A stretch of 64,000 nt of DNA from Labrys wisconsinensis (GTDB taxonomy: Bacteria; Pseudomonadota; Alphaproteobacteria; Rhizobiales; Labraceae). The translations under genes and the position numbers were made by a program. Each line of letters starts with the position of its first letter. Position 1 is the stretch's first letter. Of this stretch, positions 23,105-58,033 are shown in pieces. The stretch is from contig NZ_JAUSVX010000017.1 of the NCBI RefSeq assembly GCF_030814995.1, positions 1-64,000 of the forward strand. Direction: 5' to 3'. The notes under the pieces were generated by a model. That model was not told the DNA's origin, did not search any database, and saw nothing but the letters and a program-made list of their open reading frames with translations.

Positions 23105-23113
23105 GATTACAGA

Positions 23114-23133: not shown

Positions 23134-23179
23134 TTCCTTGCTTCTCCGTGGGCTGGGGTAGGACTCCGGGGGAGGATGG

Positions 23180-23231
23180 GGAACGGTTTACTTGATTCCG
23201 GTTGCGGTCACGACGCTGCGCCGGAGATCGT
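23180..23231 (+). repeat. dispersed ~50-bp repeat, copy 1
   Basis: Shares GTTTACTTGATTCCGG, TGCGGTCAC and GCTGCGCCGGAGATCGT with copy 2 (23300-23350). The two copies are direct, about 120 bases apart. The stretch between immunity gene and next gene otherwise shows no coding signal. Confidence 0.55.
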
Positions 23232-23299
23232 GTTTGGGCGCCAATAAAGGAGTGCCAGATTGATTGTGTGCGGAGTTACGGCGAGTGATTGGAACAGAG

Positions 23300-23350
23300 G
23301 GGCAGTTTACTTGATTCCGGCTGCGGTCACCGCGCTGCGCCGGAGATCGT
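23300..23350 (+). repeat. dispersed ~50-bp repeat, copy 2
   Basis: Contains GGCAGTTTACTTGATTCCGG followed by CTGCGGTCACCGCGCTGCGC and CGGAGATCGT; nearly identical to copy 1. It lies just upstream of the hypothetical gene ending at 24011 and could be a decayed mobile-element end or a recombination scar. Confidence 0.55.
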
Positions 23351-23411
23351 AGCTTCGAACTGGCTGATCGTTCAGGGAAAGGTCACGAGCGACGGCGAGA
23401 GTCTTGTCGAG

Positions 23412-24011
23412 ATGACCGTGCCCAACATCGTGCTCCAGCAACTCGAGACGCGAGGCCTGATCCGCGGTGGCGTCGTTCCTAGTGCTTCTGGCCTCCATAA
23501 CCAGACGATATTCCTACCGGGGCACTCGACGCTCTCAACGGCAGCGCGGCGTTTCGAGTTATCCCTCCGAATTTCTAGGACGTGGGTTATGAGCGAAAAG
23601 GGAAATACACCAGCCAACGAGTTCGGCCGGAACTTGGCTGCTGCTTCGTATCCGAGGGTGGAGGAAGTTCCTGGGACACCACAGGCGTTTCGGAGAAAGT
23701 GGGTCTTGCGGCTAAGGGTTAGCGTGCCCTTCGACGACGCCTTGAATGCTGCCGCAAGGTCTTTTGAGCTGAATGCTCGGCGAGAGATTGCTGAAGCGTT
23801 GGGATTAACTGATGATGTCGAGTTGCAACTGCCAGCGGTATCAGCTATTCGCCTGAGCGATCACCATGCCGTATTTGAAATCGATTGCCCACATGTATCG
23901 GTTGGGATGGGCGACGCCGCCGAAATTGCAACTTTGAGCATATTGAGAGGGGCAGACGAGCGGTGGTGTTTGGAAGATCTTCAGGAAATTCCAAAACATT
24001 ACTGGTTCTGA
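23412..24011 (+). CDS. hypothetical protein bracketed by dispersed repeats
   Basis: A 199-residue reading from the ATG at 23412. A TTG at 23289 would add 41 residues but runs through the repeat, and an ATG at 23589 gives a 140-residue version with a better ribosome site (GGACG). The sequence is soluble, with no signal peptide or membrane helix. The C-terminal part contains RKWVLRLRVSVPFDDALNAA and ends EIPKHYWF. Intermediate GC suggests accessory origin. No family recognised. It may be an orphan immunity gene left behind without its toxin, judged only from its place at the end of the RHS array. Confidence 0.45.
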   Translation: MTVPNIVLQQLETRGLIRGGVVPSASGLHNQTIFLPGHSTLSTAARRFELSLRISRTWVMSEKGNTPANEFGRNLAAASYPRVEEVPGTPQAFRRKWVLRLRVSVPFDDALNAAARSFELNARREIAEALGLTDDVELQLPAVSAIRLSDHHAVFEIDCPHVSVGMGDAAEIATLSILRGADERWCLEDLQEIPKHYWF

Positions 24012-41307: not shown

Positions 41308-42270
41308 ATGACCAAGCCCCGCATCGTCTTCCTCGACCGCGACACGCTCTCGCCCGAGACGCGGCTGCGCGCGCCGGCCTTCGAGCACGACTGGGTGGTG
41401 CATGATCGCACCGCGCCGGCCGAGGTCGCCCAGCGGATCGCCGAGGCCGACATCGTCATCACCAACAAGGCGCCGGTGCGGGCCGAGGCGATCGCCGGCG
41501 CGCCGCGCCTGAAGCTGATCGCGGTGGCGGCGACCGGCACGGACGTGGTCGACGTCGCCGCGGCCAAGGCCCGCGGCATCGTCGTCTCGAATATCCGCAA
41601 CTATGCCGTCAATACCGTGCCGGAGCACACCTTCGCCCTGATCCTGGCCCTGCGGCGCAGCATCCTGGCCTATCACGCCTCGGTGGCGCGCGGACGCTGG
41701 CGCGAGGCGGCGCAGTTTTGCTATTTCGACTATCCGATCCGCGACCTCGCCGGCTCGACGCTCGGCATCATCGGCGACGGCGTGCTCGGCAAGGCGGTGG
41801 CGGACATCGCCCGCGGCTTCGGCATGACGGTGCTGTTCTCCGACTACAAGGGCACGACGGGCATGGGCCCGCTCTACACGCCCTTCGAGACGGTGCTGCG
41901 CACCAGCGACATCATCACCCTGCATTCGCCGCTGCTGCCCTCGACCCGCAACCTGATCGCCGCGCCGGAATTCGCGCTGATGCAGAAGCGGCCGCTGATC
42001 ATCAACACGGCGCGCGGCGGGCTGGTGGACGAGGCGGCGCTGGTCGCCGCGCTGGAGGGCGGCCAGATCGGCGGGGCGGCTTTCGACGTGGTCACGCAGG
42101 AGCCGCCGCCGGCCGACCACCCCTTCATGCGGCTGATGGAACGGCCCGACTTCATCCTGACCCCGCACATCGCCTGGGCCAGCAGCGAGGCGATCCAGGG
42201 CCTGGCCGATCAACTGATCGAGAACGTCGAGGCGGCCTGGGCCGGAGCGCCCCGGAATGTGGTGGGCTGA
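41308..42270 (+). CDS. D-2-hydroxyacid dehydrogenase
   Basis: A 320-residue NAD(P)-dependent dehydrogenase. The nucleotide-binding segment is STLGIIGDGVLGKAVADIAR. The catalytic Arg region is IINTARGGLVDEAALVAAL, the Glu is in FDVVTQEPP, and the His in ILTPHIAWAS. It resembles hydroxypyruvate/glycerate dehydrogenases, so glyoxylate or hydroxypyruvate reduction is possible. ATG chosen by family length. Confidence 0.88.
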   Translation: MTKPRIVFLDRDTLSPETRLRAPAFEHDWVVHDRTAPAEVAQRIAEADIVITNKAPVRAEAIAGAPRLKLIAVAATGTDVVDVAAAKARGIVVSNIRNYAVNTVPEHTFALILALRRSILAYHASVARGRWREAAQFCYFDYPIRDLAGSTLGIIGDGVLGKAVADIARGFGMTVLFSDYKGTTGMGPLYTPFETVLRTSDIITLHSPLLPSTRNLIAAPEFALMQKRPLIINTARGGLVDEAALVAALEGGQIGGAAFDVVTQEPPPADHPFMRLMERPDFILTPHIAWASSEAIQGLADQLIENVEAAWAGAPRNVVG

Positions 42271-42391
42271 CAGGCGCTTAGCGGCGGTTTCCGCAGCAAA
42301 GAAAAGCGGAACGTTGCGGAGCGGCAACAGCGGCGCATCGCGCTGTTGCCGTAGTATGGCGTCAGTCCACGCCAAGGAGTTGGTTTCCTCG

Positions 42392-43153
42392 ATGTCCGCC
42401 CCGTCCCGCCGCACTTTCCTGATCGGGGCCGCCGGCCTCGCCATGGGCCTCGCCGGCTGCGCCACGACGCAGAAGACTTCCTGGGTCGAGCCGCTGGCGC
42501 CCGGGCTCGAGCCCGCCTCGGCCGCACCGGTATCGCCGGTGACGGGCGAGCCGCTGGTCGAGCCGGGCCAGCAGTTCGACTATGCGGCGATCTATGCGCG
42601 GCAGGATGCCGGCCTCTTCCCGGTGCCGGCGGTCGACCTGAAGAAGGTCAACCATGCCTTCCTGCGTGCCGAGGTCAACTACGACACCGACCAGGAGCCG
42701 GGCACGATCGTCATCGATCCGCATGCCCACTATCTCTACCATGTCGAGGGCGGCGGACGGGCGATGCGCTATGGCGTCGGCGTCGGGCGCGAAGGCTTCG
42801 GCTGGTCCGGCGAGGCGGTGATCAAGACCAAGCAGGAATGGCCGGACTGGTATCCGCCCAAGGAGATGATCGCCCGCCAGCCCGAGCTCGCCGTCAAGAT
42901 GTCGAAGCTGCAGAGCGGCATCGGCATGCATGGCGGCCCGGGCAACCCGCTCGGTGCGCGCGCCATGTATCTGTGGCAGGGCAACAAGGACACGCTGTTC
43001 CGCATCCACGGCACGGTCGAGCCCTGGACGATCGGCAAGAGCGTCTCGTCGGGCTGCATCCGCATGATCAACCAGGACGTGATGGACCTCTATCTGCGCA
43101 CGCCCGAGGGCACGAAGGTCGTGGTGCTGGGCTCGGAGCAGCCGGTCGGCTGA
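42392..43153 (+). CDS. YkuD L,D-transpeptidase, exported
   Basis: A 253-residue protein. Its N-terminus SRRTFLIGAAGLAMGLAGC combines a twin-arginine-like n-region with a lipobox ending at Cys. The YkuD domain has IHGTVEPWTIGKSVSSGCIRM with catalytic His and Cys (about residue 222). It would form 3-3 crosslinks in peptidoglycan or attach proteins to it. AAGGAG lies 12 bases before the ATG. Confidence 0.9.
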   Translation: MSAPSRRTFLIGAAGLAMGLAGCATTQKTSWVEPLAPGLEPASAAPVSPVTGEPLVEPGQQFDYAAIYARQDAGLFPVPAVDLKKVNHAFLRAEVNYDTDQEPGTIVIDPHAHYLYHVEGGGRAMRYGVGVGREGFGWSGEAVIKTKQEWPDWYPPKEMIARQPELAVKMSKLQSGIGMHGGPGNPLGARAMYLWQGNKDTLFRIHGTVEPWTIGKSVSSGCIRMINQDVMDLYLRTPEGTKVVVLGSEQPVG

Positions 43154-45000: not shown

Positions 45001-46059
45001 ATGGCGGCCAACATCAAGGGACCGGCGATCTTCCTTGCGCAATTCGCGGGGGATGCGGCGCCCTTCAATTCGTGGGATTCGATCTGCCAATGGGCTGGAT
45101 CGCTCGGCTACAAGGGCGTGCAGATCCCGACCTGGGACGGCCGCCTGTTCGACCTGGAGAAGGCCGCCGGCTCCAAGACCTATTGCGACGAGGTCAAGGG
45201 CATCGCCGGCCGGCACGGCCTGGCCATCACGGAGCTGTCGACCCACCTCCAGGGCCAGCTCGTCGCCACCCATCCCGCCTATGACGAGGCCTTCGACGGC
45301 TTCGCCCCGGCCGCGGTGCACGGCAAGCCGAGGGAGCGCCAGAAATGGGCGGTGCAGCAGATGCTCAACGCCGCGCAGGCCTCCAGGCATCTCGGGCTCG
45401 GCGCCAGCGTCACCTTCTCCGGCGCGCTCGCCTGGCCGTTCCTCTATCCCTTCCCGCAGCGGCCCGCCGGCCTGATCGAGGAAGCCTTCGCCGAGCTCGC
45501 CAAGCGCTGGAAGCCGATCCTCGATGCCTATGACGAGGTCGGGGTCGACGTCTGCTACGAGCTCCATCCCAGCGAGGACCTGTTCGACGGCGCCACCTTC
45601 GAGCTGTTCCTGGACCGGCTGAAGCAGCACCGGCGCTGCAACATCAACTACGATCCCTCGCACTTCCTGCTGCAGCAGCTCGACTATCTCCAGTTCATCG
45701 ACATCTATCACGAGCGGATCAAGGCCTTCCACGTCAAGGATGCCGAGTTCAATCCGACGGGGCGCCAGGGCGTCTATTCCGGCTATGCGCCGTGGATCGA
45801 GCGGGCCGGCCGGTTCCGCTCGCTCGGCGACGGGCAGGTCGACTTCAGCGGCATCTTCTCCAAGCTGGCGCAGTACAATTATTCCTCCTGGGCCGTGCTG
45901 GAATGGGAGTGCTGCCTCAAGCACCCCGAGGACGGCGCGCGCGAAGGCGCCCCCTTCATCGAGAGCCACCTGATCCGGGTCACCGAGAAGGCCTTCGACG
46001 ACTTCGTCGGCGCCGGCGTCGACCGCAAGCAGATCCGCCGGATGCTGGGGCTGCGCTGA
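45001..46059 (+). CDS. sugar phosphate isomerase/epimerase (AP endonuclease-2-like TIM barrel)
   Basis: A 352-residue xylose-isomerase-like TIM barrel. Metal and substrate residues are seen in DVCYELHPSEDLF, CNINYDPSHFLL, IKAFHVKDAEF and SSWAVLEWECC. The ATG has GGGAGAGG upstream. It is the first gene of the same-strand catabolic cluster and precedes a Gfo/Idh/MocA dehydrogenase, a common pairing in polyol and inositol-like pathways. It probably interconverts keto-sugar intermediates; the substrate is unknown. Confidence 0.87.
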   Translation: MAANIKGPAIFLAQFAGDAAPFNSWDSICQWAGSLGYKGVQIPTWDGRLFDLEKAAGSKTYCDEVKGIAGRHGLAITELSTHLQGQLVATHPAYDEAFDGFAPAAVHGKPRERQKWAVQQMLNAAQASRHLGLGASVTFSGALAWPFLYPFPQRPAGLIEEAFAELAKRWKPILDAYDEVGVDVCYELHPSEDLFDGATFELFLDRLKQHRRCNINYDPSHFLLQQLDYLQFIDIYHERIKAFHVKDAEFNPTGRQGVYSGYAPWIERAGRFRSLGDGQVDFSGIFSKLAQYNYSSWAVLEWECCLKHPEDGAREGAPFIESHLIRVTEKAFDDFVGAGVDRKQIRRMLGLR

Positions 46060-46148
46060 GGCAGACGGTGGCCCAGAGCGGCGCAGAACCCTTCTCCGTC
46101 CGGGGGAGGGGTTCAAGCGTTTACTCATTTTGGCAAGGAAATCACGCG

Positions 46149-47324
46149 ATGGCCATCGAGGGACGGTCGGACGACAAGGCGGGGGGCCGCATCCGGCTCG
46201 GGATGGTGGGCGGGGGCGAGGGCGCCTTCATCGGGGCGGTGCACCGCATCGCCGCGCGGCTCGACGACAATTATGTGCTGGTGGCGGGCGCGCTGTCCTC
46301 GACGCCGGAGAAGGCATTGCGCTCGGGCGCGGCGCTGGGGCTCGATCCGGCGCGCACCTATCCCGACTTCGCGACCATGGCCACCCAGGAGCGGCGGCGT
46401 CGCCGCGACGGCATCGAGGCGGTGGCGATCGTCACGCCCAACCACATGCACGCCCCGGCCGCCGAAGCCTTCATCCGGGCCGGCATCCACATCATCTGCG
46501 ACAAGCCCCTGACCACGACGCTCAAGGATGCGCGGCGGCTGAAGCTGCTGGCCGAGCGCCGGGGCATCGTCTTCGCCGTCACCCACAATTACACCGGCTA
46601 TCCCCTGATGCGTGCGGCGCGCGAGATGGTGCAGGCCGGCGAGCTCGGCGAGATCCGGGTGGTGCAGGTGGAGTACCCGCAGGACTGGCTGACCACCAGG
46701 ATCGAGGACACGGCGCAGAAGCAGGCGGAATGGCGCACCGATCCCGCCCGGTCCGGCGCCGGCGGCTGCATCGGCGACATCGGCACCCACGCCTTCAACC
46801 TGGCGCAGTTCGTCACCGGCCTGACGGTCGCGGAATTGTCGGCCGAGCTCACCACCTTCGTGCCCGGCCGCCGGCTCGACGACAATGTGCAGATCAACTT
46901 CCGCTACGCGAACGGGGCGCGCGGCTCGCTCTGGGCGAGCCAGGTGGCGCCCGGCAACGAGAACGGCCTGATGCTGCGCATTTACGGCACCAAGGCCGGC
47001 ATCCAGTGGCGCCAGGACAATCCGAACCTGCTCTATTTTTCCCCGCTGGGCGAGCCGACACGGATCATCACCCGCGGCTCGGCTGCCGCCGGCGCCGCGG
47101 CGGCGCGGGTGACGCGGGTGCCGCCCGGCCATCCCGAAGGCTATCTGGAAGGCTTCGCCAGCATCTATACCGAGATCGCCGCGGCCATCCGGGCGGCGCG
47201 CGAGGGCAGGGCGCCGGACCCGGCCGTGACCTTTCCGGGCCTCGACGACGGCATCGCCGGCATGGCCTTCATCGAGGCGGCGGTCCGCTCCTCCGCGCGC
47301 AACGGCGCCTGGGTCAGGCTCTGA
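46149..47324 (+). CDS. Gfo/Idh/MocA-family NAD(P)-dependent oxidoreductase
   Basis: A 391-residue enzyme. The nucleotide-binding loop is LGMVGGGEGAFIGAVH, the catalytic Lys in IICDKPLTTTLKDAR, and GCIGDIGTHAFNLAQF supplies the downstream catalytic Asp/His motif. Members oxidise sugars or cyclitols at a secondary hydroxyl. AAGGAA precedes the ATG. Together with the isomerase upstream it should feed the kinase module downstream. Confidence 0.9.
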   Translation: MAIEGRSDDKAGGRIRLGMVGGGEGAFIGAVHRIAARLDDNYVLVAGALSSTPEKALRSGAALGLDPARTYPDFATMATQERRRRRDGIEAVAIVTPNHMHAPAAEAFIRAGIHIICDKPLTTTLKDARRLKLLAERRGIVFAVTHNYTGYPLMRAAREMVQAGELGEIRVVQVEYPQDWLTTRIEDTAQKQAEWRTDPARSGAGGCIGDIGTHAFNLAQFVTGLTVAELSAELTTFVPGRRLDDNVQINFRYANGARGSLWASQVAPGNENGLMLRIYGTKAGIQWRQDNPNLLYFSPLGEPTRIITRGSAAAGAAAARVTRVPPGHPEGYLEGFASIYTEIAAAIRAAREGRAPDPAVTFPGLDDGIAGMAFIEAAVRSSARNGAWVRL

Positions 47325-47472
47325 GCCGAGGGGCCGCGAGCCCGGCGAAGACCAGCCGCGCTCCCGCCGATCGGGGCGCGGCATCCCGCAGCGCGGTGAG
47401 ATCGCGCCTGCCGGCCTCCTTGATCGCAGCCGCCGCATCGCGCGCTTCCTCTACGCGATTTGCCGCTTGCAA

Positions 47473-47500
47473 TGTTTAGTGTTTCGTGTTGCACTAAACA
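47473..47500. promoter_or_regulatory. inverted repeat operator candidate before the ABC importer
   Basis: Perfect nine-base arms TGTTTAGTG and CACTAAACA are separated by ten bases, inside the 440-base gap between the dehydrogenase and the binding-protein gene. TTTAGT/ACTAAA half-sites resemble ROK- or LacI-type operators. No terminator-like T-run follows, so a regulator site is the likelier reading. The rest of this gap (47325-47766) holds no convincing gene. Confidence 0.5.
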
Positions 47501-47766
47501 AATCGAGGGATCTGCAAGGGGCGCGCAACAGCCCGGGCGATCCATCGGGGGAAATGCTGGTTTCGTGACAGTCCATCGTTGATCCGCGGCTCCGCCCGCC
47601 ACGCCCGGCCTCGTGCCGGCGCGTCGTTCGGCGCTGCCTCGACCCTGCCCGACGTCTTCGGGCGGGACCGGAGAATCGTGCCGACTGTCGCGCCAAGCCA
47701 TGCCGTGCCGATCCCGGCCTTGCCCGGGCGGTTGATCTGGTTGGTTCCACTGGGAGGAAAGCTGCG

Positions 47767-49098
47767 ATGCGATATACGGTGAAAGCGCTGTTTGCCGCCG
47801 CCGGCGCCCTGGCGCTGGGGCTCGGCCTCGGGGCGCCGGCCCGGGCCGAGGGCAAGACGATCACGCTGTGCTGGGCCGCCTGGGACCCGGCCAACGCCTT
47901 GGTCGAGCTCTCCAAGGACTTCACGGCCAAGACCAACATCGCCATGAAGTTCGAGTTCGTGCCATGGACGAACTATGCCGATCGTTTCCTCAACGAGCTG
48001 AATTCCCACGGCTCGCTCTGCGACGTGATCATCGGCGATTCCCAGTGGATCGGCGGCTCGGCGGAGAACGGGCACTACGTCAAGCTGAACGACTTCTTCG
48101 ACAAGAACGGCATCAAGATGGACGACTTCATGCCGGCCACGGTGCTGGGCTATTCGGAATGGCCCAAGAACACGCCCAACTACTGGGCGCTGCCGGCCAT
48201 GGGCGACGCGGAGGGCTGGACCTACCGCAAGGACTGGTTCGCGCGTCCCGAGCTCCAGGCCGAGTTCAAGAAGACCTATGGCCGCGACCTCGCCGTGCCC
48301 AAGACGCTCGACGAGCTCACCGACATCGCCAAGTTCTTCCAGGGCCGCGAGATCGACGGCAAGAAGGTCTATGGCGCGGCGATCTTCACCGAGCGCGGCT
48401 CGGAAGGCATCACCATGGGCGTGTCGAACTTCCTCTATCCCTACGGCTTCCAATACCAGGACCCGAACAAGCCTTACGCCATGGACGGCTTCGTCAACTC
48501 GCCGGACTCGGTGAAGGGGCTCGAAGCCTACAAGGCGCTCTATGATTGCTGCACGCCGCCCGGGCATTCCAACGCCTACATGCAGGAGGACCTGGACGCG
48601 TTCAAGTCGGGCCAGGTCGCGCTGCAGATGAACTGGTTCGCCTTCTTCCCCGGCCTCTACAAGGATCCGAATGTCGGCGGCGACAAGATCGGCTTCTTCG
48701 TCAATCCCGGACAGAAGACCAAGGGCTCCCAGCTCGGCGGGCAGGGGATCTCGGTCGTCTCCTATTCGAAGAACCAGGCGGAGGCGCTCGAATATATCAA
48801 GTGGTTCGCGACCGCCGACGTGCAGAAGAAATGGTGGGCGCTCGGCGGCTATTCCTGCGCCAAGTCGGTGCTGAACGACCCGGACTTCCCGAAGACGGCG
48901 CCGTTCGCCTCCGACTTCCTGGAGGCGATGGGGCAGGTGGTGGATTTCTGGGCCGAGCCGTCCTACGCCCAGCTTCTCCTCGCCGAGCAGAAGCGCGTCC
49001 ACGACTATGTCGTCGCCGGCAAGGGCACGGCCAAGGACGCCCTCGACGGCCTGGTGAAGGATTGGCAGGACGTGTTCAAGGAAGACGGCAAGATCTGA
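47767..49098 (+). CDS. carbohydrate ABC transporter periplasmic binding protein
   Basis: A 443-residue family-1 solute-binding protein with a Sec signal peptide (cleavage near GAPARA|EGK). It starts TITLCWAAWDPANALVELSK and has many Trp/Tyr residues typical of sugar or polyol ligands (WTNYADRF, YWALPAMGDAEGWTYRKDW). A GGAGGAAA ribosome site precedes the ATG. It defines the importer of the cluster. It is shorter than the glycerol-binding GlpV proteins (about 570 residues). Confidence 0.92.
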   Translation: MRYTVKALFAAAGALALGLGLGAPARAEGKTITLCWAAWDPANALVELSKDFTAKTNIAMKFEFVPWTNYADRFLNELNSHGSLCDVIIGDSQWIGGSAENGHYVKLNDFFDKNGIKMDDFMPATVLGYSEWPKNTPNYWALPAMGDAEGWTYRKDWFARPELQAEFKKTYGRDLAVPKTLDELTDIAKFFQGREIDGKKVYGAAIFTERGSEGITMGVSNFLYPYGFQYQDPNKPYAMDGFVNSPDSVKGLEAYKALYDCCTPPGHSNAYMQEDLDAFKSGQVALQMNWFAFFPGLYKDPNVGGDKIGFFVNPGQKTKGSQLGGQGISVVSYSKNQAEALEYIKWFATADVQKKWWALGGYSCAKSVLNDPDFPKTAPFASDFLEAMGQVVDFWAEPSYAQLLLAEQKRVHDYVVAGKGTAKDALDGLVKDWQDVFKEDGKI

Positions 49099-49185
49099 GA
49101 CCGGACGCATCCCAACCCCTCTCCCCGGCGGGGGGAGGGGCATCCTCGAGCCGGCAGTGGCCGATCACCCTCCAGGGCCCCTTCG

Positions 49186-50139
49186 ATGAACGATCTTGCC
49201 AAGGCCTCGGAACTCGCCGCTCGCGCGACGCCCCCCGGTGTGGCGCGGCGCGTCCGCGGCCTCTCCGACCGGGCCATCGCCTGGGTGTTCATCGCCCCGA
49301 CCATCGCGCTCTTGCTGGCGATCAACATCTTCCCGTTGATCTGGACGGTGTACCTGTCTTTCACCAATTACCGCGCCAACCGGCCGAATGCGGAGGTCAA
49401 GTCGGTCGGGCTCGACTGGTACAGCAAGATCCTGACCGATCCGGACGTCTGGGCGGCGATGCAGGTGACGGCGCATTTCGTCATCGCGACCATCGTGATC
49501 CAGACGGTGCTCGGCTTCGGCCTCGCCTTCCTGATCGACAAGAAGTTCCGCGGCCACGGCGTGTGGACCACCATCATCCTGCTGCCGATGATGCTGTCGC
49601 CGGCCGTGGTCGGCAATTTCTGGACCTTCCTCTACCAGCCGCAGATCGGCCTGTTCAACTACGCCGTGTCCTTCCTCACCGGCGTGCCGCCGTCCTCCTT
49701 CCAGATGCTCGGCGACGTGACGCTCAGCCCCTGGGCGATCGTCATCGTCGACTGCTGGATGTGGACGCCCTACGTCATGCTGATCTGCCTGGCGGGCCTG
49801 CGCTCCATCCCCGACTATATCTACGAGGCGGCCGAGGTCGACCGCGCCTCGACATGGCGGCAGTTCTGGTCGATCACCCTGCCGATGGCGCTGCCCTTCA
49901 TCATGCTGGCGGTGCTGTTCCGCGGCATCGAGAACTTCAAGATGTTCGACATGGTCAACCTCTTGACCGGCGGAGGACCGGGCTCGACCACCGAGGTCGC
50001 CTCGATCACGCTGAAGCGCGAGGCCTTCGAGAAATGGCGCACCGGCTATTCCTCCGCCTTCGCCATCATCCTGTTCGTGACCGTGTTCGGGCTCGCGAAC
50101 ATCTATGTGAAGGCGCTCAACCGGGTGAAGCAGAGATGA
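49186..50139 (+). CDS. carbohydrate ABC transporter permease 1
   Basis: A 317-residue permease with six transmembrane helices and the EAA loop IYEAAEVDRASTWRQFWSITLP. It is of the MalF/UgpA type and should pair with the second permease downstream. It starts 87 bases after the binding-protein gene, in a gap that contains a small GC hairpin (near 49115-49142). Confidence 0.92.
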   Translation: MNDLAKASELAARATPPGVARRVRGLSDRAIAWVFIAPTIALLLAINIFPLIWTVYLSFTNYRANRPNAEVKSVGLDWYSKILTDPDVWAAMQVTAHFVIATIVIQTVLGFGLAFLIDKKFRGHGVWTTIILLPMMLSPAVVGNFWTFLYQPQIGLFNYAVSFLTGVPPSSFQMLGDVTLSPWAIVIVDCWMWTPYVMLICLAGLRSIPDYIYEAAEVDRASTWRQFWSITLPMALPFIMLAVLFRGIENFKMFDMVNLLTGGGPGSTTEVASITLKREAFEKWRTGYSSAFAIILFVTVFGLANIYVKALNRVKQR

Positions 50140-50212
50140 GGGAGGGGGCGATGCTGAACATCTCCGAGTGCGACGCCAGCCTTTTCGCCCTCACACGCGA
50201 CGCGGGCCATTT

Positions 50213-50355
50213 CCCCTCCCCCGTGCGGGGAGGGGTAAGGGGTGGGGGTCGTGCAGAACGATCTGCACCGCTCGCCGGAAGGCGCCTCTTGTCGCATCTC
50301 CTGCCTCTTCCTGATGAACCCCCACCCCTTACCCCTCCCCGCACGGGGGAGGGGA
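50213..50355. repeat. long inverted repeat (RPE/REP-like) inside the ABC operon
   Basis: Two arms of about 35 bases, at 50213-50249 and 50319-50355, are near-perfect reverse complements (CCCCTCC...GTGCGGGGAGGGG against CCCCTCCCCGCACGGGGGAGGGG). They enclose about 70 bases. Such palindromes are widespread in alphaproteobacterial intergenic DNA. It sits in the 253-base gap between the two permease genes and could form a strong RNA hairpin that stabilises or attenuates the mRNA. Confidence 0.7.
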
Positions 50356-50392
50356 GTGGCACACGTCGCGCCTCTTCGGCGGAGATCCTCGC

Positions 50393-51340
50393 ATGACCAC
50401 CGCCGCCCATTCCGTCGTCGAGCCCTCGCGCGCCACCAAGAGCATCGCCGGCGCGCTGGTGATCCTCTATGCCCTGATCACCATGATCCCGCTGGTGTGG
50501 ATCGGCCTCACCTCGATCAAATCGCCGACCGATTCGATTTCCTATCCGCCCAAGGTGATGTTCACGCCGTCGCTGGAGGGCTACTGCAACCTCTTCACCA
50601 CGCGCTCGCGGCAGACGCCGGACTATATCCAGAGCCTGGGGCCGGCCACGGGCCTCTGCGACGAGATCGCCCGCGACCGCAACATGGTGATCGTCGGGCC
50701 CTCGAACTACGTGCCGCGCTTCGTCAACTCGCTGATCATCGCCTTCGGCTCGACCTTCCTGGCCGTGCTGCTCGGCACGCTGGCCGCCTACGGCTTCTCG
50801 CGCTTCAAGGTGCCGCTGAAGGACGACCTGCTCTTCTTCATCCTCTCCACCCGGATGATGCCGCCGATCGCGGTGGCGATCCCGATCTTCCTGATGTTCC
50901 GCGAGCTCGGGCTGTCCGACACCCGGCTCGGCATGATCCTGCTCTACACCTCCGTCAACGTGTCGCTGGCCGTCTGGCTGCTGAAGGGCTTCATCGACGA
51001 GATCCCGCGCGAGTATGAGGAGGCGGCGATGATCGACGGCTATACCCGCTTCCAGGCCTTCATCAAGGTGGTGCTGCCTCAGGCGGCGACCGGCATCGCG
51101 GCGACCGCGATCTTCTGCCTGATCTTCGCCTGGAACGAATATGCCTTCGCCGTGCTGCTCACCTCGGGCGAGGCGCAGACCGCGCCGCCCTTCATCCCGA
51201 TCATCATCGGCGAGGGCGGGCTCGACTGGCCAGCGGTGGCGGCGGGCACGACCCTGTTCCTCATCCCGATCGTGGTGTTCACCGTGCTCCTGCGCAAGCA
51301 TCTGCTACGCGGGATCACCTTCGGAGCGGTGCGCAAATGA
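50393..51340 (+). CDS. carbohydrate ABC transporter permease 2
   Basis: A 315-residue MalG/UgpE-type permease with six helices, a long periplasmic insertion after helix 1 (about residues 60-100) and the EAA loop EYEEAAMIDGYTRFQAFIKVVLP split around residues 205-225. The stop overlaps the small membrane protein gene by ATGA. Confidence 0.92.
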   Translation: MTTAAHSVVEPSRATKSIAGALVILYALITMIPLVWIGLTSIKSPTDSISYPPKVMFTPSLEGYCNLFTTRSRQTPDYIQSLGPATGLCDEIARDRNMVIVGPSNYVPRFVNSLIIAFGSTFLAVLLGTLAAYGFSRFKVPLKDDLLFFILSTRMMPPIAVAIPIFLMFRELGLSDTRLGMILLYTSVNVSLAVWLLKGFIDEIPREYEEAAMIDGYTRFQAFIKVVLPQAATGIAATAIFCLIFAWNEYAFAVLLTSGEAQTAPPFIPIIIGEGGLDWPAVAAGTTLFLIPIVVFTVLLRKHLLRGITFGAVRK

Positions 51341-51507
51341 CGAAGCTCCTGCGTCGCGGGCCGCTCGAGGCGGTGGCCACCGGCATCATCGCGCTCGGCA
51401 TCATCATGCTGATGCAGCCGGTGTCGCTCACGCTCTATTCCTACTCCTTCGTCACCACGCTCGCCGGCACGGTGATGTTCATCATCGTGTCGAAATTCCC
51501 GGAGTGA
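51337..51507 (+). CDS. 56-residue membrane peptide in the ABC operon
   Basis: A small gene below usual ORF cut-offs: the ATG overlaps the permease stop and the TGA lies four bases before the first ATPase gene. The product has a basic N-terminus (MTKLLRRGPLEAVATG) and two hydrophobic helices (about residues 12-30 and 33-52), ending SKFPE. Glycerol-type ABC operons carry a comparable small membrane protein. It may be an accessory subunit of the transporter. Confidence 0.75.
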   Translation: MTKLLRRGPLEAVATGIIALGIIMLMQPVSLTLYSYSFVTTLAGTVMFIIVSKFPE

Positions 51508-51511
51508 GACG

Positions 51512-52609
51512 ATGGCGCAGATCCGGGTCGAAAACCTCGAAAAATCCTTCGGCGCCTTCCAGGCGGTGAAGGCGTCGAGCTTCACCGTCGAGGACGGCGA
51601 GTTCTTCTGCCTGCTCGGCCCCTCGGGCTGCGGCAAGACCACGACGCTGAGGATGATCGCCGGGCTGGAGCTGCCGACCTCCGGCGCGATCTTCCTCGGC
51701 GGCGACGAGGTGGCGCAGAAACGCGCCTCCGAGCGCGACATCGCCTTCGTCTTCCAGCTGTTCGCGCTCTATCCCCACATGAACGTGCGCAAGAACATTG
51801 GCTTCTCCTTGCTGTGCGAGGGGGTGGCCGCGGCCGAGATCCGCACGCGGGTGGAGGAGGCGGCGCGGATCCTGCGGATCGGCCATCTCCTGGACAAGCC
51901 GGTGTCGGGGCTGTCCAGCGGCGACCGCCAGCGCGTCGCCCTCGGCCGGGCGATCGTGCGCAAGCCCAAATGCTTCCTGATGGACGAGCCGCTGGGCGCG
52001 CTCGACACCGAGCTGCGCGAGGCCATGATCCACGAGCTGCGCGGCCTGCACGACCGGCTCGGCGCCACCACGGTCTACGTCACCCACGACCAGCTCGAGG
52101 CCATGGCCATGGCCGACAAGATCGCCGTCATGAACGCCGGCGTGGTCGAGCAGGTGGCGAGCCCCAAGGTGATCTACGACCGGCCGGCCTCGCTCTTCGT
52201 CGCCGATTTCATCGGCTCGCCGCCGATGAACTTCCTGCCGTTCCGCGGCGCGCTGGCGCCGGGCGCGAGCGAGATCCGGCTGGGGCAGGGGCGGGTGGCC
52301 ATGCCGGCGGCGCGCGAGGCGGTGGCCGAGAGCGACCTCGTGCTCGGGGTCCGGCCCGAGCATGTCCGTTTCTCCGAGGCCGGCGCGGTGCGTGGCGCGG
52401 TCTACGGCGCCGAATATCTCGGCACGACCCAGATCGTCACGGTGACCACCGACTACGGCATGCTGCGCGCCCGGGCGCCCTCGGCGGCCGCCTTCGCCAC
52501 GGGCGAGGCCGTCGGCCTCGACTTCCGGCCGGAGAAGCTCTCCGTGTTCGACAAGGCCTCGGGGCGGGCGATCCGCACCGCCCTGCACGAGGGAGCGGGA
52601 CATGGCTGA
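51512..52609 (+). CDS. ABC transporter ATPase 1, degenerate signature motif
   Basis: A 365-residue MalK-like ATPase: Walker A GPSGCGKTTTLR, Walker B CFLMDEPLGALD, H-loop YVTHDQLEAM, and a C-terminal TOBE region. The signature reads LSSGDRQRV instead of LSGGQ, so one of the two ATP sites is probably impaired. A second, canonical ATPase follows, suggesting an asymmetric heterodimer as in GlpS/GlpT-type importers. Its end overlaps the next gene by eight bases. Confidence 0.92.
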   Translation: MAQIRVENLEKSFGAFQAVKASSFTVEDGEFFCLLGPSGCGKTTTLRMIAGLELPTSGAIFLGGDEVAQKRASERDIAFVFQLFALYPHMNVRKNIGFSLLCEGVAAAEIRTRVEEAARILRIGHLLDKPVSGLSSGDRQRVALGRAIVRKPKCFLMDEPLGALDTELREAMIHELRGLHDRLGATTVYVTHDQLEAMAMADKIAVMNAGVVEQVASPKVIYDRPASLFVADFIGSPPMNFLPFRGALAPGASEIRLGQGRVAMPAAREAVAESDLVLGVRPEHVRFSEAGAVRGAVYGAEYLGTTQIVTVTTDYGMLRARAPSAAAFATGEAVGLDFRPEKLSVFDKASGRAIRTALHEGAGHG

Positions 52610-53615
52610 GATCCGCCTCAACGCCGTCGCCAAGGCGTTCCGCGAGACCCGCGCCGTCGAGGCGCTGACGCTCACCGTCGGCGACGGCGAGTTCGTGGTG
52701 CTGCTCGGGCCGACGGGCGCGGGCAAGACCACGACGCTGCGCCTCGTCGCCGGGCTCGAGGCGCCGGATGCCGGCAGCGTCTTCATCGGCGGCCGCGACG
52801 TCACGGCCGAGCCGCCGGCGGTGCGCGACGTCGCCTTCGTGTTCCAGCAATATTCGCTCTATCCGCATCTCAGCGTGTACGACAATCTCGCCTTTCCCCT
52901 GCGCTCGCCGACGCGGCGCACGCCGGAGGCCGAGATCCGCGCCAAGGTCGACAGCATCGCCCGGCTGCTGCACATCGAGGGCAAGCTCGCCAACCGGGCC
53001 ACCGAGCTCTCGGGCGGCCAGATGCAGCGCGTCGCCATCGGCCGGGCGCTGGTGCGCTCGCCCGCCGTCTATCTCATGGACGAGCCTTTGTCCTCGCTCG
53101 ACGCCAAGCTCAGGGCCGAGCTGCGGCTGGAGCTGAAGCATATCCAGCAGGATCTCGGCGCCACCATGCTCTATGTCACCCACGACCAGACCGAGGCGAT
53201 GACCATGGCGAGCCGCATCGGCGTCATCGACCGCGGCCGCCTGGTGCAGGTCGGCTCGCCGCGCGAGATCTACGAGAACCCGGTCAACACCTATGTGGCG
53301 ACGCGGCTCGGCCAGCCCGGCATCAACCTGGTGCCGGCCGGCGTGTTCCGCGACAGCGGCCTGCCGTCGGCGACGCAGACCGTCGGCGTGCGCACCGAGC
53401 ATCTCGCCATCGCCAAGGGGGGCCCGGGCCTGGCCGCCACGGTGACGCGCATCGAGCATCTCGGCGACCAGAGCCACCTGCATCTCGACCTCACCGGCCG
53501 GACTATCGTCACCCTCGCCGATCCCGACTCCGCCTTCGCGGCCGGAGACCGGGTCGGCGTCAGCCTGAAGGGCGCGCTGCTCTTCGACGCGAATGGGGAG
53601 CGCGTGGCGGCATGA
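52602..53615 (+). CDS. ABC transporter ATPase 2, canonical
   Basis: A 337-residue ATPase with Walker A GPTGAGKTTTLR, signature LSGGQMQRVAIGRA, Walker B VYLMDEPLSSLD and H-loop YVTHDQTEAM. The C-terminal TOBE domain is shorter than in MalK. It overlaps the first ATPase gene and the dhaL gene (ATGA), tying transport and kinase genes into one transcript. Confidence 0.92.
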   Translation: MAEIRLNAVAKAFRETRAVEALTLTVGDGEFVVLLGPTGAGKTTTLRLVAGLEAPDAGSVFIGGRDVTAEPPAVRDVAFVFQQYSLYPHLSVYDNLAFPLRSPTRRTPEAEIRAKVDSIARLLHIEGKLANRATELSGGQMQRVAIGRALVRSPAVYLMDEPLSSLDAKLRAELRLELKHIQQDLGATMLYVTHDQTEAMTMASRIGVIDRGRLVQVGSPREIYENPVNTYVATRLGQPGINLVPAGVFRDSGLPSATQTVGVRTEHLAIAKGGPGLAATVTRIEHLGDQSHLHLDLTGRTIVTLADPDSAFAAGDRVGVSLKGALLFDANGERVAA

Positions 53616-54220
53616 CCATGGACCAGGCGGGCCGGGAGCAGCTGGTGCGGGCGCTGGCGGCGGCGGTGATCGACCATGCCGAGGAGCTGACGCGCCTCGA
53701 CCAGGCGATCGGCGACGGCGACCATGGCCTCAACATGAAGCGCGGCTTCGAGGCGGTGCTGGCGGATCTGCCGGCGACCGCGGCAAAGCCGCTGCCGGAC
53801 ATGATGAAGGCGATCGGCATGACCATGGTGATGAAGGTGGGCGGCGCCTCCGGCCCGCTGGTCGGCACCTTCTTCCTGGAGCTGGGCAAGGCCCTGCCGG
53901 GCGAGCCGGCCCGTGCGGATCTGGTGGCGGCGACCGCCAAGGCCATTGCCGGCGTCCGGGCGCGCGGCAAGTCCGAGACGGGGCAGAAGACCATGCTCGA
54001 CGTGCTGGTGCCGGTGCAGGCGGCCTTCGCCGCAGGCGGCGACGGCGCGGCGCTCAAGGCCGAGGCGGCCAGGGCGGCCGAGGCGACGGTGCCGATGCTG
54101 GCGACGCGCGGGCGGGCCTCCTTCCTCGGCGAGCGCTCGATCGGGCACATGGATCCCGGTGCCCGCTCGTCGCAGCTGATGATCGCCGCGGCGGCGGATG
54201 CCCTGGGCGGCGAGGTATAG
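53612..54220 (+). CDS. dhaL: dihydroxyacetone kinase ADP-binding subunit DhaL
   Basis: A 202-residue DhaL/Dak2 subunit. The nucleotide/Mg motif is LDQAIGDGDHGLNMKRGF; GKSETGQKTMLDVLVP and RASFLGERSIGHMDPG are also characteristic. DhaL keeps bound ADP that is rephosphorylated by DhaM, then hands the phosphate to the substrate on DhaK. ATGA overlap with the second ATPase gene. Confidence 0.92.
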   Translation: MTMDQAGREQLVRALAAAVIDHAEELTRLDQAIGDGDHGLNMKRGFEAVLADLPATAAKPLPDMMKAIGMTMVMKVGGASGPLVGTFFLELGKALPGEPARADLVAATAKAIAGVRARGKSETGQKTMLDVLVPVQAAFAAGGDGAALKAEAARAAEATVPMLATRGRASFLGERSIGHMDPGARSSQLMIAAAADALGGEV

Positions 54221-54249
54221 GCTTGGTTGGTTCGGGAAGGCACGGTCTC

Positions 54250-54633
54250 ATGAATGTCGGCATCGTCATCGTCTCCCATTCCGTGAAGGTCGCCGAGGGC
54301 GCCGCCGACATGGTGCGCCAGATGGTCGGCGAAGCGGTGCCGCTCGCCTGGACGGGTGGCGATCCGGCCGGGGGGCTCGGCACCGACGTCGCCAAGATCC
54401 TGGCGGCGATCGAGGCGGCCTGGTCGCCGGCCGGCGTTGCCGTGCTGGTCGACCTCGGCGGCGCCGAGACCAATTCGGAAATGGCGATCGAGATGCTCGA
54501 CGAGGACAGGCGCGAGCACGTGGTGGTGTGCAACGCCCCGATCGTCGAGGGGGCCGTCATTGCCGCGACGGAGGCGTCCGGCGGCTCCTCGCTCGATGCG
54601 GTCAAGCGCACGGCGGAAGACCTCTATGCGTAG
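54250..54633 (+). CDS. dhaM: PTS-dependent dihydroxyacetone kinase phosphotransferase subunit DhaM (EIIA domain only)
   Basis: A 127-residue EIIA-mannose-type fold. The phospho-acceptor His10 is in GIVIVSHSVKVAEG, with GGDPAGGLGTDVAKI and VDLGGAETNSEMA following. Unlike the E. coli DhaM, no HPr or EI domains are fused; both are separate genes immediately downstream. It transfers phosphate from HPr to ADP on DhaL. Confidence 0.92.
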   Translation: MNVGIVIVSHSVKVAEGAADMVRQMVGEAVPLAWTGGDPAGGLGTDVAKILAAIEAAWSPAGVAVLVDLGGAETNSEMAIEMLDEDRREHVVVCNAPIVEGAVIAATEASGGSSLDAVKRTAEDLYA

Positions 54634-54643
54634 GGATGACACC

Positions 54644-54931
54644 ATGAGCTCGCAGATTGCCCTGACCGGTTCCGCCGTCCTGGAAAACGCGGTCGGCCTG
54701 CATGCGCGGCCCTCGGTGAAGCTGACGCAGCTCGCCAAGCGCTACGCCGCGTCGATCGAGTTCGCGCTCGGGCCCGACGGCCCCTGGACGGATGCCAAGA
54801 GCCCGGTGAAGGTGATGCGGGTCAAGGCGTCGAAGGGGACGACGCTCTATTTCCGAGCCGCCGGCGAGGATGCGGAAGCGGCGCTCGACGCCGTGCTGAC
54901 GCTGGTGCGCGACAAGTTCGGGGAAGAGTGA
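54644..54931 (+). CDS. HPr-family phosphocarrier protein
   Basis: A 95-residue HPr with the active-site His20 in ENAVGLHARPSVKLTQLA. The regulatory Ser region is replaced by WTDAKSPVKVMRVKA, so the HPr-kinase Ser46 site is not obvious. It starts ten bases after dhaM and should shuttle phosphate from Enzyme I to DhaM, dedicated to this kinase. Confidence 0.92.
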   Translation: MSSQIALTGSAVLENAVGLHARPSVKLTQLAKRYAASIEFALGPDGPWTDAKSPVKVMRVKASKGTTLYFRAAGEDAEAALDAVLTLVRDKFGEE

Positions 54932-54977
54932 TGGCGGCCCGGCCAAACGGCATACGGCACCGCCCCGGAGGGCGACC

Positions 54978-56555
54978 ATGACGGAGCTGCGCCTCTCCGG
55001 CCGTGCCGCCGCGCCCGGCCTTGCGATCGGGCCGGTGGTCGCGATGGCGGCGGCAACGGCGGCGCGGGCCGCAACGGGCGACCCGGCCCGCGAGGCGGGC
55101 GACCTCCGCGCGGCTCTCGCCGCCGCCGCCGCTGAGATCACGGCCCTGGCGGAGCGCAGCGACGGCGAGGCCGCCGACATCCTCGCCTTCCAGGTGGCGA
55201 TGCTGGAGGACGCGGCGCTGGCCGAGGGCGCCTTCCATGCGATCGAGGCGGGCATCCCGGCCGACCATGCCTGGCGCCAGGCGCTGGCGGCCGAGATCGA
55301 GGGCTACGAGGCGGCCGAGGACGAGTATTTCCGCGCCCGTGCCGCCGATCTCGTCGATATCCGCGACCGGGTGTTGGCGCATCTCACCGGCACGGCGGGG
55401 CTGGACGTCGTCCCGCGCGGCGCGATCCTCGCCGCCGAGGACCTGACGCCCTCGCGCTTCCTCGCCACCGACTGGAGCGCGGGCGGAGCGGTGGTGCTGG
55501 CTGGCGGCTCGCCCTCCTCGCATGTGGCGATGCTGGCGCGAGCCCGCGGCGTGCCGATGGTGGTGGCGCTGGGGGAGACGCCGGCGGGCCGGGTGGCGCT
55601 GGTCGACGGCGACCGCGGCGTGGTGGTTGTCGAGCCCGGGCCGCAGACGCGGCAGGCTTTCGAGGGGCGGATGGAGGAGGCCGCGGCCGCGGGCGCGGCG
55701 GCGCTCGCCTTTCGCGATCGCCCGGCGGCGATGGCCGACGGCACGCCCGTGTCGGTGCTGATCAACATTGCCGAGCCGGCGGAGCTCGACGGGCTCGACC
55801 CGGCGATCTGCGACGGCATCGGCCTGGTGCGCACCGAGTTCCTGTTCCATGCCGGCCGCGGCTTGCCGGACGAGGAGGCGCAGCTTGCGGTCTATGCCCG
55901 CATCGCCGCCTGGGCCCGGGGCCGGCCCGTCACCATCCGCACGCTCGATGCCGGCGGCGACAAGCCGATCGCCGGACTGACGGTCCAGGAGGCCAATCCG
56001 TTCCTCGGCCTGCGCGGCATCCGGCTGTCCCTGACGCGGCCGGAGGTGTTCCGGGTGCAGCTGCGGGCGCTGGCCCGTGCCGCCGTGCACGGCAACGTCA
56101 AGGTGATGCTGCCGATGGTGGCGGTGCCCGCGGAGCTGGAGCGGGCCGGCGCGCTGCTCGACGAGGCGGTGGCGGACCTCAAGGCGGCCGGCCTGCCGCA
56201 TGCCCGTCCGCCGCTCGGCATCATGGTGGAGGTGCCGGCGGCGGCGATCTCGGCGACACGCTTTCCCGCCGCCTTCTATTCGATCGGCTCCAACGACCTG
56301 ACGCAGTATACCATGGCGGCGGCGCGCGACCTCGGCGCGGTGGCCGAGCTCAACGATGCCGGCGATCCCGCCGTGCTGGCGCTGATCGCCAGCACCGTGG
56401 CGGCCGGGGCGGCGCGCGGCGTCGAGGTCTCGCTTTGCGGCGACGCCGGTGCCGACCTATCCTTGCTGCCGAAGCTGCTGGCCACGGGCCTCAGGGCGGT
56501 GTCCGTGGCGCCGGTGGCGGTGGCGCGCGTCAAGGCGGCGATCGCGAGGTGCTGA
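54978..56555 (+). CDS. phosphoenolpyruvate-protein phosphotransferase (PTS Enzyme I)
   Basis: A 525-residue Enzyme I. The phospho-His182 is in AGGSPSSHVAMLARARGVPM. PEP-binding elements are DGIGLVRTEFLF, TIRTLDAGGDKPI, LPMVAVPAELERA and SNDLTQYTMAAARD; Cys487 lies in SLCGDAGADL. No GAF or HPr domain is fused, so it is neither EI-Ntr nor a multidomain PTS protein. It starts the PEP-to-HPr-to-DhaM relay. Confidence 0.93.
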   Translation: MTELRLSGRAAAPGLAIGPVVAMAAATAARAATGDPAREAGDLRAALAAAAAEITALAERSDGEAADILAFQVAMLEDAALAEGAFHAIEAGIPADHAWRQALAAEIEGYEAAEDEYFRARAADLVDIRDRVLAHLTGTAGLDVVPRGAILAAEDLTPSRFLATDWSAGGAVVLAGGSPSSHVAMLARARGVPMVVALGETPAGRVALVDGDRGVVVVEPGPQTRQAFEGRMEEAAAAGAAALAFRDRPAAMADGTPVSVLINIAEPAELDGLDPAICDGIGLVRTEFLFHAGRGLPDEEAQLAVYARIAAWARGRPVTIRTLDAGGDKPIAGLTVQEANPFLGLRGIRLSLTRPEVFRVQLRALARAAVHGNVKVMLPMVAVPAELERAGALLDEAVADLKAAGLPHARPPLGIMVEVPAAAISATRFPAAFYSIGSNDLTQYTMAAARDLGAVAELNDAGDPAVLALIASTVAAGAARGVEVSLCGDAGADLSLLPKLLATGLRAVSVAPVAVARVKAAIARC

Positions 56556-56556
56556 G

Positions 56557-56985
56557 ATGGCGGATTCGGCGGGGGAGAAGGAGGGCCGGACGCTCTCCGG
56601 CGTCGCCGCCTACAAGGGCGTGCTGCGCCAGGTGCTCGACAACCGGCCCTCCGGCACGCGGCTGAAGCTGGCCGCGGCGCTGGGCAAGAACCGCTCCTTC
56701 GTCTCGCAGATCACCAATCCGGCCTATCCCGTGCCGATCCCGGCGCAGCATGTCGAGATCATCTTCGAGGTCTGCCACCTCTCGCCGGCGGAGAAGGCGG
56801 CCTTCCTGGAGGCCTATCACCAGGCGCATCCGCGCCGCCTCGCCGGCAAGGACCATGCGCCGCACACCCGCACCATCACCGTCACGGTGCCGGACCTCGG
56901 CGATGCCCGCAAGAACCGGGCGCTGGAGCAGACCATCGCCGATCTCGCCGCCCGGCTGGCGCGGTACGCGGAGGACGTCGGCTAA
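56557..56985 (+). CDS. small HTH-like protein between Enzyme I and DhaK
   Basis: A 142-residue protein starting one base after the Enzyme I stop. The N-terminal half reads as an XRE-like helix-turn-helix (TRLKLAAALGKNRSFVSQI, with SPAEKAAFLEAY further on). The C-terminal part has TITVTVPDLGDARKNRALEQ followed by a helix. No known kinase or PTS family is recognised. It could be the local regulator or a protein that binds the kinase subunits. Confidence 0.65.
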   Translation: MADSAGEKEGRTLSGVAAYKGVLRQVLDNRPSGTRLKLAAALGKNRSFVSQITNPAYPVPIPAQHVEIIFEVCHLSPAEKAAFLEAYHQAHPRRLAGKDHAPHTRTITVTVPDLGDARKNRALEQTIADLAARLARYAEDVG

Positions 56986-57043
56986 GGCGGCGTGAAGGCC
57001 GCAGACGTGCCGCCACGACAGAACGATCCGAGGGGGAAACGCC

Positions 57044-58033
57044 ATGAAGAAGCTGATCAACGCCGTCGACGCCGTGCTGGCGGAGAGCCTGGACGGCTTC
57101 GCCGCCGCCCATGCCGACATCCTGACCATGGGTGAGGAGCGCAAGTTCGTGCGCCGCAGGACCCTCAAGCCCGGCAAGGTCGGGCTGATCTCCGGCGGCG
57201 GCTCCGGGCACGAGCCGCTGCATGCCGGCTTCGTCGGCCTCGGCATGCTGGACGCGGCCTGCCCCGGCCAAGTCTTCACCTCGCCGACGCCCGACCAGAT
57301 GCTCGCGGCGGCCGAGGCGGTGGACACCGGGGCCGGCGTGCTGTTCATCGTCAAGAACTACGAAGGCGACGTGATGAACTTCGCCATGGCGGCCGAGATG
57401 GCCGGCCGCGAGGTCGCCACCGTGATCACCGACGACGACGTGGCGGTGGAGAACTCGACCTACACCACCGGCCGGCGCGGCGTCGCCGGCACGCTGATCG
57501 TCGAGCGCATCGTCGGCGCGGCGGCCGAGCAGGGGCGCGACCTCGCCGCGCTCCAGGCGCTGGGCGAGGCGGTGAACGGGCGCACCCGCTCGATGGGCGT
57601 GGCGCTGAGCTCCTGCACCGTGCCGGCTGCCGGCACGCCGACCTTCACGCTCGGCGAGGACGAGATGGAGATGGGCGTCGGCATCCATGGCGAGCCCGGC
57701 CGGCGCCGGGTCAGGCTCGCGAGCGCCGACGCCATCGCCGAGGAGATGCTGGGCTCGGTCCTGAAGGATCTCGCGCCCAGGCGCGGCGCCGAGGCGCTGC
57801 TGCTGGTCAACGGCTTCGGCGGCACGCCGCTGATGGAGCTCTACCTCATGGTCGACAGTGCCCGGCGCGTGCTGGAGGGGGCCGGCGTCAAGGCCGTGCG
57901 CTTCCTCACCGGCTCCTACGTCACCTCGCTGGAGATGGCGGGCTGCTCGCTCACCCTGTCGCTGCTCGATGCGGAGACGACGGCGCTCTGGGACGCGCCG
58001 CTGCACACGCCGGCCCTGCGCTGGGGAGCATAA
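57044..58033 (+). CDS. dhaK: dihydroxyacetone kinase substrate-binding subunit DhaK
   Basis: A 329-residue DhaK/Dak1 subunit. His56 lies in SGGGSGHEPLHAGFVG, and His215 in MGVGIHGEPGRRR is the residue that binds substrate covalently as a hemiaminal in known DhaK. MNFAMAAEMAGREVATVITD and LLVNGFGGTPLMELYL are further family motifs. It phosphorylates dihydroxyacetone or a similar short ketose with DhaL and DhaM. It follows the HTH-like gene by 58 bases, and a ribosome site (GAGGGGGAAA) precedes the ATG. Confidence 0.93.
   Translation: MKKLINAVDAVLAESLDGFAAAHADILTMGEERKFVRRRTLKPGKVGLISGGGSGHEPLHAGFVGLGMLDAACPGQVFTSPTPDQMLAAAEAVDTGAGVLFIVKNYEGDVMNFAMAAEMAGREVATVITDDDVAVENSTYTTGRRGVAGTLIVERIVGAAAEQGRDLAALQALGEAVNGRTRSMGVALSSCTVPAAGTPTFTLGEDEMEMGVGIHGEPGRRRVRLASADAIAEEMLGSVLKDLAPRRGAEALLLVNGFGGTPLMELYLMVDSARRVLEGAGVKAVRFLTGSYVTSLEMAGCSLTLSLLDAETTALWDAPLHTPALRWGA

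Follow-up and report, generated by a model that had tools for sequence, protein, structure and literature searches.

A dihydroxyacetone kinase operon with its own importer and a candidate regulator

The window analysed here comprises the first 64,000 nucleotides of contig NZ_JAUSVX010000017.1 of Labrys wisconsinensis (assembly GCF_030814995.1; 8.9 Mb in 55 contigs). Within it, the genes at 47767-58033 rather likely constitute a single operon for the uptake and activation of dihydroxyacetone (DHA), which would be controlled by a small helix-turn-helix (HTH)-like protein acting through a palindrome. The module joins a phosphotransferase system (PTS)-type DHA kinase to an importer of its own and probably also brings a dedicated regulator. 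Gene content, conserved gene order, kinase family membership, active-site residues and the co-occurrence of the HTH-like gene with the palindrome can be read directly from the sequence, and what is new here is the palindrome and this co-occurrence.

The cluster that a preliminary description had placed at 45001-58033 was confirmed by family tests, with all named genes open and on the + strand, and it splits into two units (Table 1). The first (45001-47324) holds iso and gfo. The second begins at 47767 and runs in the order binding protein (sbp), two permeases (p1 and p2), a 56-amino-acid open reading frame (ORF), two ATPases (a1 and a2), DhaL, DhaM, HPr, enzyme I (EI), the 142-amino-acid HTH-like protein and DhaK. 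That description had named its genes correctly and had overlooked the 56-amino-acid ORF, the HTH-like gene and a perfect 28-bp palindrome, which lies inside the 443 bp separating gfo from sbp. The spacing resembles that of a single transcription unit: overlaps of a few bases join p2 to the small ORF, a1 to a2 and a2 to dhaL, and only one base separates EI from the HTH-like gene. A scan gave 3 promoter-like sites where 0.8 were expected, all of them outside the 47325-47766 gap, and 3 terminator-like sites where 5.2 were expected; it was uninformative.

Judged by curated profiles, the window cluster belongs to the PTS-dependent dihydroxyacetone kinase (DhaKLM) family. DhaK, DhaL, DhaM and HPr all score above their NCBIfam cut-offs; EI falls 2.6 bits short of TIGR01417 (339.1 against 341.7) and clears Pfam PF02896 (275.4 against 22.8). 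The window DhaK carries His56, Lys104, Asp109 and His215, presumably the residues of DHA binding and catalysis as in Escherichia coli DhaK, and these are conserved in 82, 80, 82 and 81 of 82 aligned rows, respectively. The DHA cut-off of 406.25 bits is passed by the window DhaK (472.3) and by a Paraburkholderia DhaK (451.7), while the three other DhaK copies of the genome remain below it (389.5, 383.5 and 382.1 bits). One of these three, at locus L099 (G000:C1:822500-842000), adjoins, by reading alone, a CUT1 importer, a regulator and OtnI/OtnK/OtnC/LtnD-type genes, and this locus is probably a tetrose or acid-sugar cluster.

The source of phosphate, EI and HPr, is encoded within the operon; the genome holds two EI genes, that of the cluster and one with an 812-amino-acid open frame. 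The absence of a PTS membrane permease, claimed earlier, is true of the cluster, and PTS_EIIC (PF02378), the one EIIC family searched, had zero matches genome-wide (control matches in 7 of 14 named genomes). DhaKLM kinases normally work without a membrane permease. The unusual part is the dedicated importer, not the permease-less PTS kinase.

This importer consists of a binding protein, two MalF/MalG-type permeases and UgpC/MalK-type ATPases, and is thereby of the CUT1 type. Its proteins reach no equivalog cut-off, hence no solute is assigned by profile, and sbp had no NCBIfam match at 0.001. A scan of genome contigs with the binding protein gave at least 593 stretches (592 confirmed), from which 80 loci were kept; in 68 of these the importer and dhaK are both present and the sequence extends 250 bp or more upstream, and the other 12 were set aside as incomplete or short. 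Complete loci keep the importer-kinase order, with importer genes ~53-91% identical to those of the window. On this comparison the linkage of importer and kinase is far beyond chance. The earlier claim that the importer joins a phosphoenolpyruvate (PEP)-dependent DHA kinase in one module that lacks a PTS permease is supported.

The kinase part varies. DhaM, EI and the HTH-like gene are present in 40 of the 68 loci (HPr was undetected in one, L063). In the other 28, mostly of Paraburkholderia and Variovorax types, DhaL and DhaK occur with no DhaM or EI detected. On a plasmid of Agrobacterium vitis (L180, NZ_CP081839.1) the module consists only of a LacI regulator, the importer and a single-chain Dak1-Dak2 kinase. 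It is the smallest form of the module seen, and is flanked by conjugation-type genes. Rhizobium T136 has a single-chain kinase and the PTS set together, with its HTH-like gene annotated as 'hypothetical protein'. Among plasmid records, 24 carry the HTH-like gene and 165 the binding protein, 114 of the latter at less than 60% identity.

The importer is thus found with DhaLM-HPr-EI-HTH-DhaK, with DhaL-DhaK alone, with a single-chain kinase or with both kinds. Since import and a DHA kinase are the shared core of the loci, the solute is presumably DHA; the occurrence of the importer with several kinase architectures, together with a kinase that passes the DHA cut-offs, makes DHA import and phosphorylation the best reading. 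In the neighbour clustering of the 80 loci, no family other than a LacI-type regulator occurs in more than 7 loci, and no recurrent dehydrogenase or aldolase appears in the clusters, which were built mechanically after dropping ORFs that overlapped window-gene matches. On Sinorhizobium meliloti pSymA (L179), a 44%-identical importer stands in an annotated stretch with no DHA kinase; therefore, distant importers of the sbp family may serve other solutes. The L179 importer adjoins PEP hydrolase-family and Tm-1-like genes.

A palindrome that follows the kinase operon

The palindrome TGTTTAGT-N12-ACTAAACA at 47473-47500 is perfect, and no second copy occurs in the genome when up to 2 mismatches are allowed. 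When the 68 loci were searched (N11-13, up to 2 mismatches), it was found in 39 of the 40 that have the HTH-like gene and in none of the 28 that do not, with no other site in these loci. After the addition of 16 loci and the window, it precedes the operon in 50 of the 57 loci that carry the HTH-like gene and in 0 of the 28 that lack it. In 27 of these 28, a LacI-type gene lies upstream (typed by reading; confirmed by Pfam for the A. vitis relative). It is perfect in Sinorhizobium fredii NGR234, has 2 mismatches in T136, and is missing from the A. vitis LacI-type locus. At 1 mismatch it occurs in 7 of 60 related genomes, 6 of them among the 11 that carry the HTH-like gene (reversed control, 2 of 60), and in 4 of 385 genomes of the class, 3 of them among 13 with the gene.

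Four genomes of the same genus (G001-G004) separate the importer from the kinase. A close binding protein is lacking there (28-30% identity at best), and they carry a dha operon without importer (L109-L112), in which the palindrome lies directly before dhaL (1, 1, 1 and 2 mismatches). By this comparison, the palindrome follows the kinase operon.

At a threshold of 0.001, the HTH-like protein of the window matches nothing in Pfam or NCBIfam. Weak matches to HTH_31, HTH_3 and HTH_19 were found in some of 31 family members, the best (2.6e-05, to HTH_31) in 4 of the 31, and PDB chains of XRE and Cro type match weakly (E 0.012 for 3f6w, and 0.049). Its AlphaFold model is all-helical (pLDDT 84.2, pTM 0.57). 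The gene is present in 11 of the 60 relatives, always between EI and dhaK, and in 13 of the 385 class genomes. The 12 besides that of the window all lie within a dha cluster, 10 of them in the order EI-HTH-dhaK (L165 and L167 differ). We predict from this placement and co-occurrence that the protein regulates the operon, and suggest that the palindrome is the operator it binds.

Alternatively, the palindrome could be bound by another, unlinked regulator, with the HTH-like protein modulating, for example, EI or DhaK. The HTH gene and EI co-occur in 85 of 85 rows and are so inseparable that the protein could be a PTS accessory; LacI-type genes stand alongside the HTH gene at L039, L054, L164, L168, L170 and L173; and independent switches of the HTH-palindrome pairing are few. 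We nevertheless find this rather unlikely, as there is one site per genome where tested, the palindrome moves with the dha genes in G001-G004, and at class level it is found in 3 of 13 genomes with the HTH-like gene against 1 of 372 others.

The upstream pair and the substrate of the kinase

The preliminary description had argued that the enzymes upstream imply a kinase substrate other than DHA. The iso protein is identical to the 2-hydroxy-3-keto-glucal hydratase of PDB 8ro4 at 242 of 348 aligned positions (70%), and we infer that 8ro4 is the Agrobacterium enzyme AtHYD. By analogy with the Agrobacterium pathway, gfo is probably its partner reductase, converting 3-keto-glucose to glucose. From these similarities, iso and gfo look like enzymes of glucoside breakdown, not makers of a new kinase substrate. 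An assignment of iso as the myo-inosose-2 dehydratase IolE was rejected (TIGR04379, 52.6 against 290 bits).

Among 90 loci with both dhaK and the first operon gene (13 of them with less than 4 kb upstream), iso and gfo adjoin the module in 12, of which 8 point the same way and 4 diverge; where 4 kb or more of upstream sequence is available, the count is 11 of 77. Besides the window, they stand beside the module at L039, L046, L047, L054, L072, L112, L115, L116, L168, L169, L170 and L173, and such loci include Alsobacter, Prosthecomicrobium and Piscinibacter records. Chance adjacency was dropped as an explanation, since the pairing recurs in both orientations and in several families. In G001-G003, iso lies ~8 kb from the dha genes. 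At L112, iso-gfo directly precedes the palindrome and dhaL, and by eye an L,D-transpeptidase-like gene flanks iso there, as it does at 42257-43153 of the window.

These observations bear on the idea that the substrate of the kinase is another ketose, such as erythrulose or apulose, made or supplied by the upstream enzymes, and that the importer carries a larger sugar or polyol. The recurrence of the pair in 12 of 90 loci speaks for it, as do the partner kinases that fall under DHA cut-offs and an iso homologue in 11 of 11 HTH-bearing genomes against 11 of 49 others among the 60 relatives, a comparison uncorrected for genome size. We consider it improbable all the same: iso closely matches the hydratase, the gap with the predicted operator sets the pair apart, the pair is missing beside 78 of the 90 loci (including those with short upstream sequence), and the window DhaK lies above the DHA cut-off while its three paralogues lie below. 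An undescribed pathway for a tetrulose or branched ketose, as first suggested, finds no support here.

No better placed is the proposal that the importer takes glycerol or a glycerol-like polyol, from which a glycerol dehydrogenase encoded elsewhere makes DHA: a 146-amino-acid glycerol-dehydrogenase-like piece at C32 (167 bits against 336 needed), ten Fe-ADH matches and the known two-ATPase CUT1 glycerol importer GlpSTPQV of Rhizobium count for it, but the neighbourhood clusters show no recurrent dehydrogenase family, and the A. vitis plasmid module consists of LacI, importer and kinase only.

Proposed mechanism and its weight

In the DHA operon that we favour, the CUT1-type ATP-binding cassette (ABC) importer would bring in DHA, spending ATP, and DhaK would bind it covalently. 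PEP would supply phosphate to DhaM by way of the EI and HPr encoded in the operon, DhaM would re-phosphorylate DhaL-ADP, and the product, dihydroxyacetone phosphate, would enter lower glycolysis. The HTH-like protein would bind the palindrome upstream of the first gene and control transcription. The iso and gfo genes would form a separate unit for 3-keto-glucoside salvage, often settling beside the operon.

Several findings weigh against this reading. The DhaK of Rhizobium T136, beside the same importer, scores 398 against the 406.25 bits of the DHA cut-off, and single-chain kinases beside the same importer also score low (T136 554 and A. vitis 504, against 574.95 bits). The nearest solved binding proteins are distant from sbp (5iai, E 2e-16). 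The HTH assignment is weak by profile. Fisher values for the HTH-palindrome link are tiny but overstated, as the tree needs few switches; the independent pairs number 2 with support and 4 on the best tree, all agree in direction, and the sign test gives a p of 0.5. In seven loci that carry the HTH-like gene the palindrome is missing even with 2 mismatches allowed, and a search of these seven for other palindromes gave partial matches only, at 3 to 6 mismatches. Across the class, the reversed control pattern turns up in 9 of the 385 genomes and the palindrome itself in 4. Finally, a purely separate unit does not explain the recurrence of iso and gfo beside the module, and some link may exist.

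We also entertain, more tentatively, a stronger version in which the PTS relay is private and feeds the kinase only, alongside the DHA importer, and in which the HTH-like protein represents a new family of small regulators that have no ligand domain, sense the state of DhaK, of DhaL or of the relay through protein contact, and recognise the palindrome described above.

If the DHA operon is as we propose, it would explain DHA scavenging by many soil and plant-associated bacteria, would show what a genome lacking a PF02378 permease does with a sugar-type PTS, and would provide a regulator-operator pair for genes annotated as 'hypothetical protein'.

Features of the cluster

The features are collected in Table 1. 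The 56-amino-acid ORF has no Pfam or NCBIfam match. Elsewhere in the window, G+C falls to 0.58 (1-4000) and 0.56 (20001-24000), against 0.65-0.74 in the remainder.

Table 1. Genes and predicted operator of the cluster, in window coordinates.
Feature	Position	Strand	Evidence or remark
iso, TIM-barrel protein	45001..46059	+	PF01261; phmmer 8ro4 E 1e-172; neighbouring unit, outside core
gfo, Gfo/Idh/MocA oxidoreductase	46149..47324	+	PF01408, PF22725, PF02894; 3v5n E 5.7e-168
Predicted operator palindrome	47473..47500		267 bp upstream of binding-protein start codon
sbp, extracellular solute-binding protein of importer	47767..49098	+	PF01547, PF13416
p1, permease (MalF/UgpA-like)	49186..50139	+	NCBIfam profile search
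p2, permease (MalG/UgpE-like)	50393..51340	+	NCBIfam profile search
56-amino-acid small ORF, hydrophobic by eye	51337..51507	+	position matches bsr3569 and Rhizobium T136 'hypothetical protein'
a1, ABC ATPase (UgpC-like)	51512..52609	+	383 bits against 432 needed
a2, second ABC ATPase (UgpC-like)	52602..53615	+	ABC_tran, TOBE_2
dhaL, ADP-binding kinase subunit	53612..54220	+	TIGR02365 213.1 bits, cut-off 138.3
dhaM, phosphoryl donor subunit (EIIA-man type)	54250..54633	+	TIGR02364 137.3 bits, cut-off 98.25
HPr	54644..54931	+	TIGR01003 56.1 bits, cut-off 47.9; PF00381
EI (PEP-protein phosphotransferase)	54978..56555	+	PF05524, PF00391, PF02896
142-amino-acid HTH-like protein, predicted operon regulator	56557..56985	+	weak HTH profile matches among relatives; all-helical model
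dhaK, dihydroxyacetone-binding kinase subunit	57044..58033	+	TIGR02363 472.3 bits, cut-off 406.25; best PDB match PTS-dependent DhaK

Comparison with known systems

In the literature accessible to a full-text search, which covered few subscription journals, we found no description of the palindrome, the HTH-like protein, a DHA ABC importer, or any DHA transporter or DHA-binding protein. DHA kinase operons are known to be regulated by DhaS-DhaQ or by DhaR. The operon described here resembles these systems in the operon-linked control predicted for its kinase genes; however, Pfam and NCBIfam show no enhancer-binding, TetR or DhaQ part in the 142-amino-acid protein.

The DhaKLM system of E. coli shares with the window the DhaK, DhaL and DhaM subunits, the path from PEP through EI, HPr, DhaM and DhaL to DHA, and the active-site residues. 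The window differs in having its own separate HPr and EI genes, a dedicated ABC importer, and a small HTH-like protein in place of DhaR. For entry of DHA into E. coli, the part of the source available to us names GlpF alone, as a putative channel (PMC6643234).

In Agrobacterium tumefaciens, according to the portion of the report available, GlycDH, AtOGE, AtHYD and Gfo successively oxidise, eliminate, hydrate and reduce glucosides, with the evidence for the hydratase step called preliminary by its authors (PMC10628242). The window pair corresponds to the hydratase and reductase steps of that pathway; in contrast, it comes without a dehydrogenase or eliminase gene and adjoins a DHA kinase operon.

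The closest published counterpart is blr3566-blr3577 of Bradyrhizobium diazoefficiens, which by annotation has the same gene order, including bsr3569 and the hypothetical blr3576. Unlike the window, the published cluster B has no iso and gfo, and the portion of its description that we could consult describes neither the palindrome nor a role for the HTH-like protein (PMC5017801). In the same 2016 source, as far as it was accessible, the listed genes of blr3566-blr3577 were co-expressed, all rising 4.2-24.3-fold in a TetR mutant and standing at 0.17-0.60-fold in wild-type bacteroids, and the authors interpreted the cluster as ABC and PTS sugar uptake (PMC5017801).

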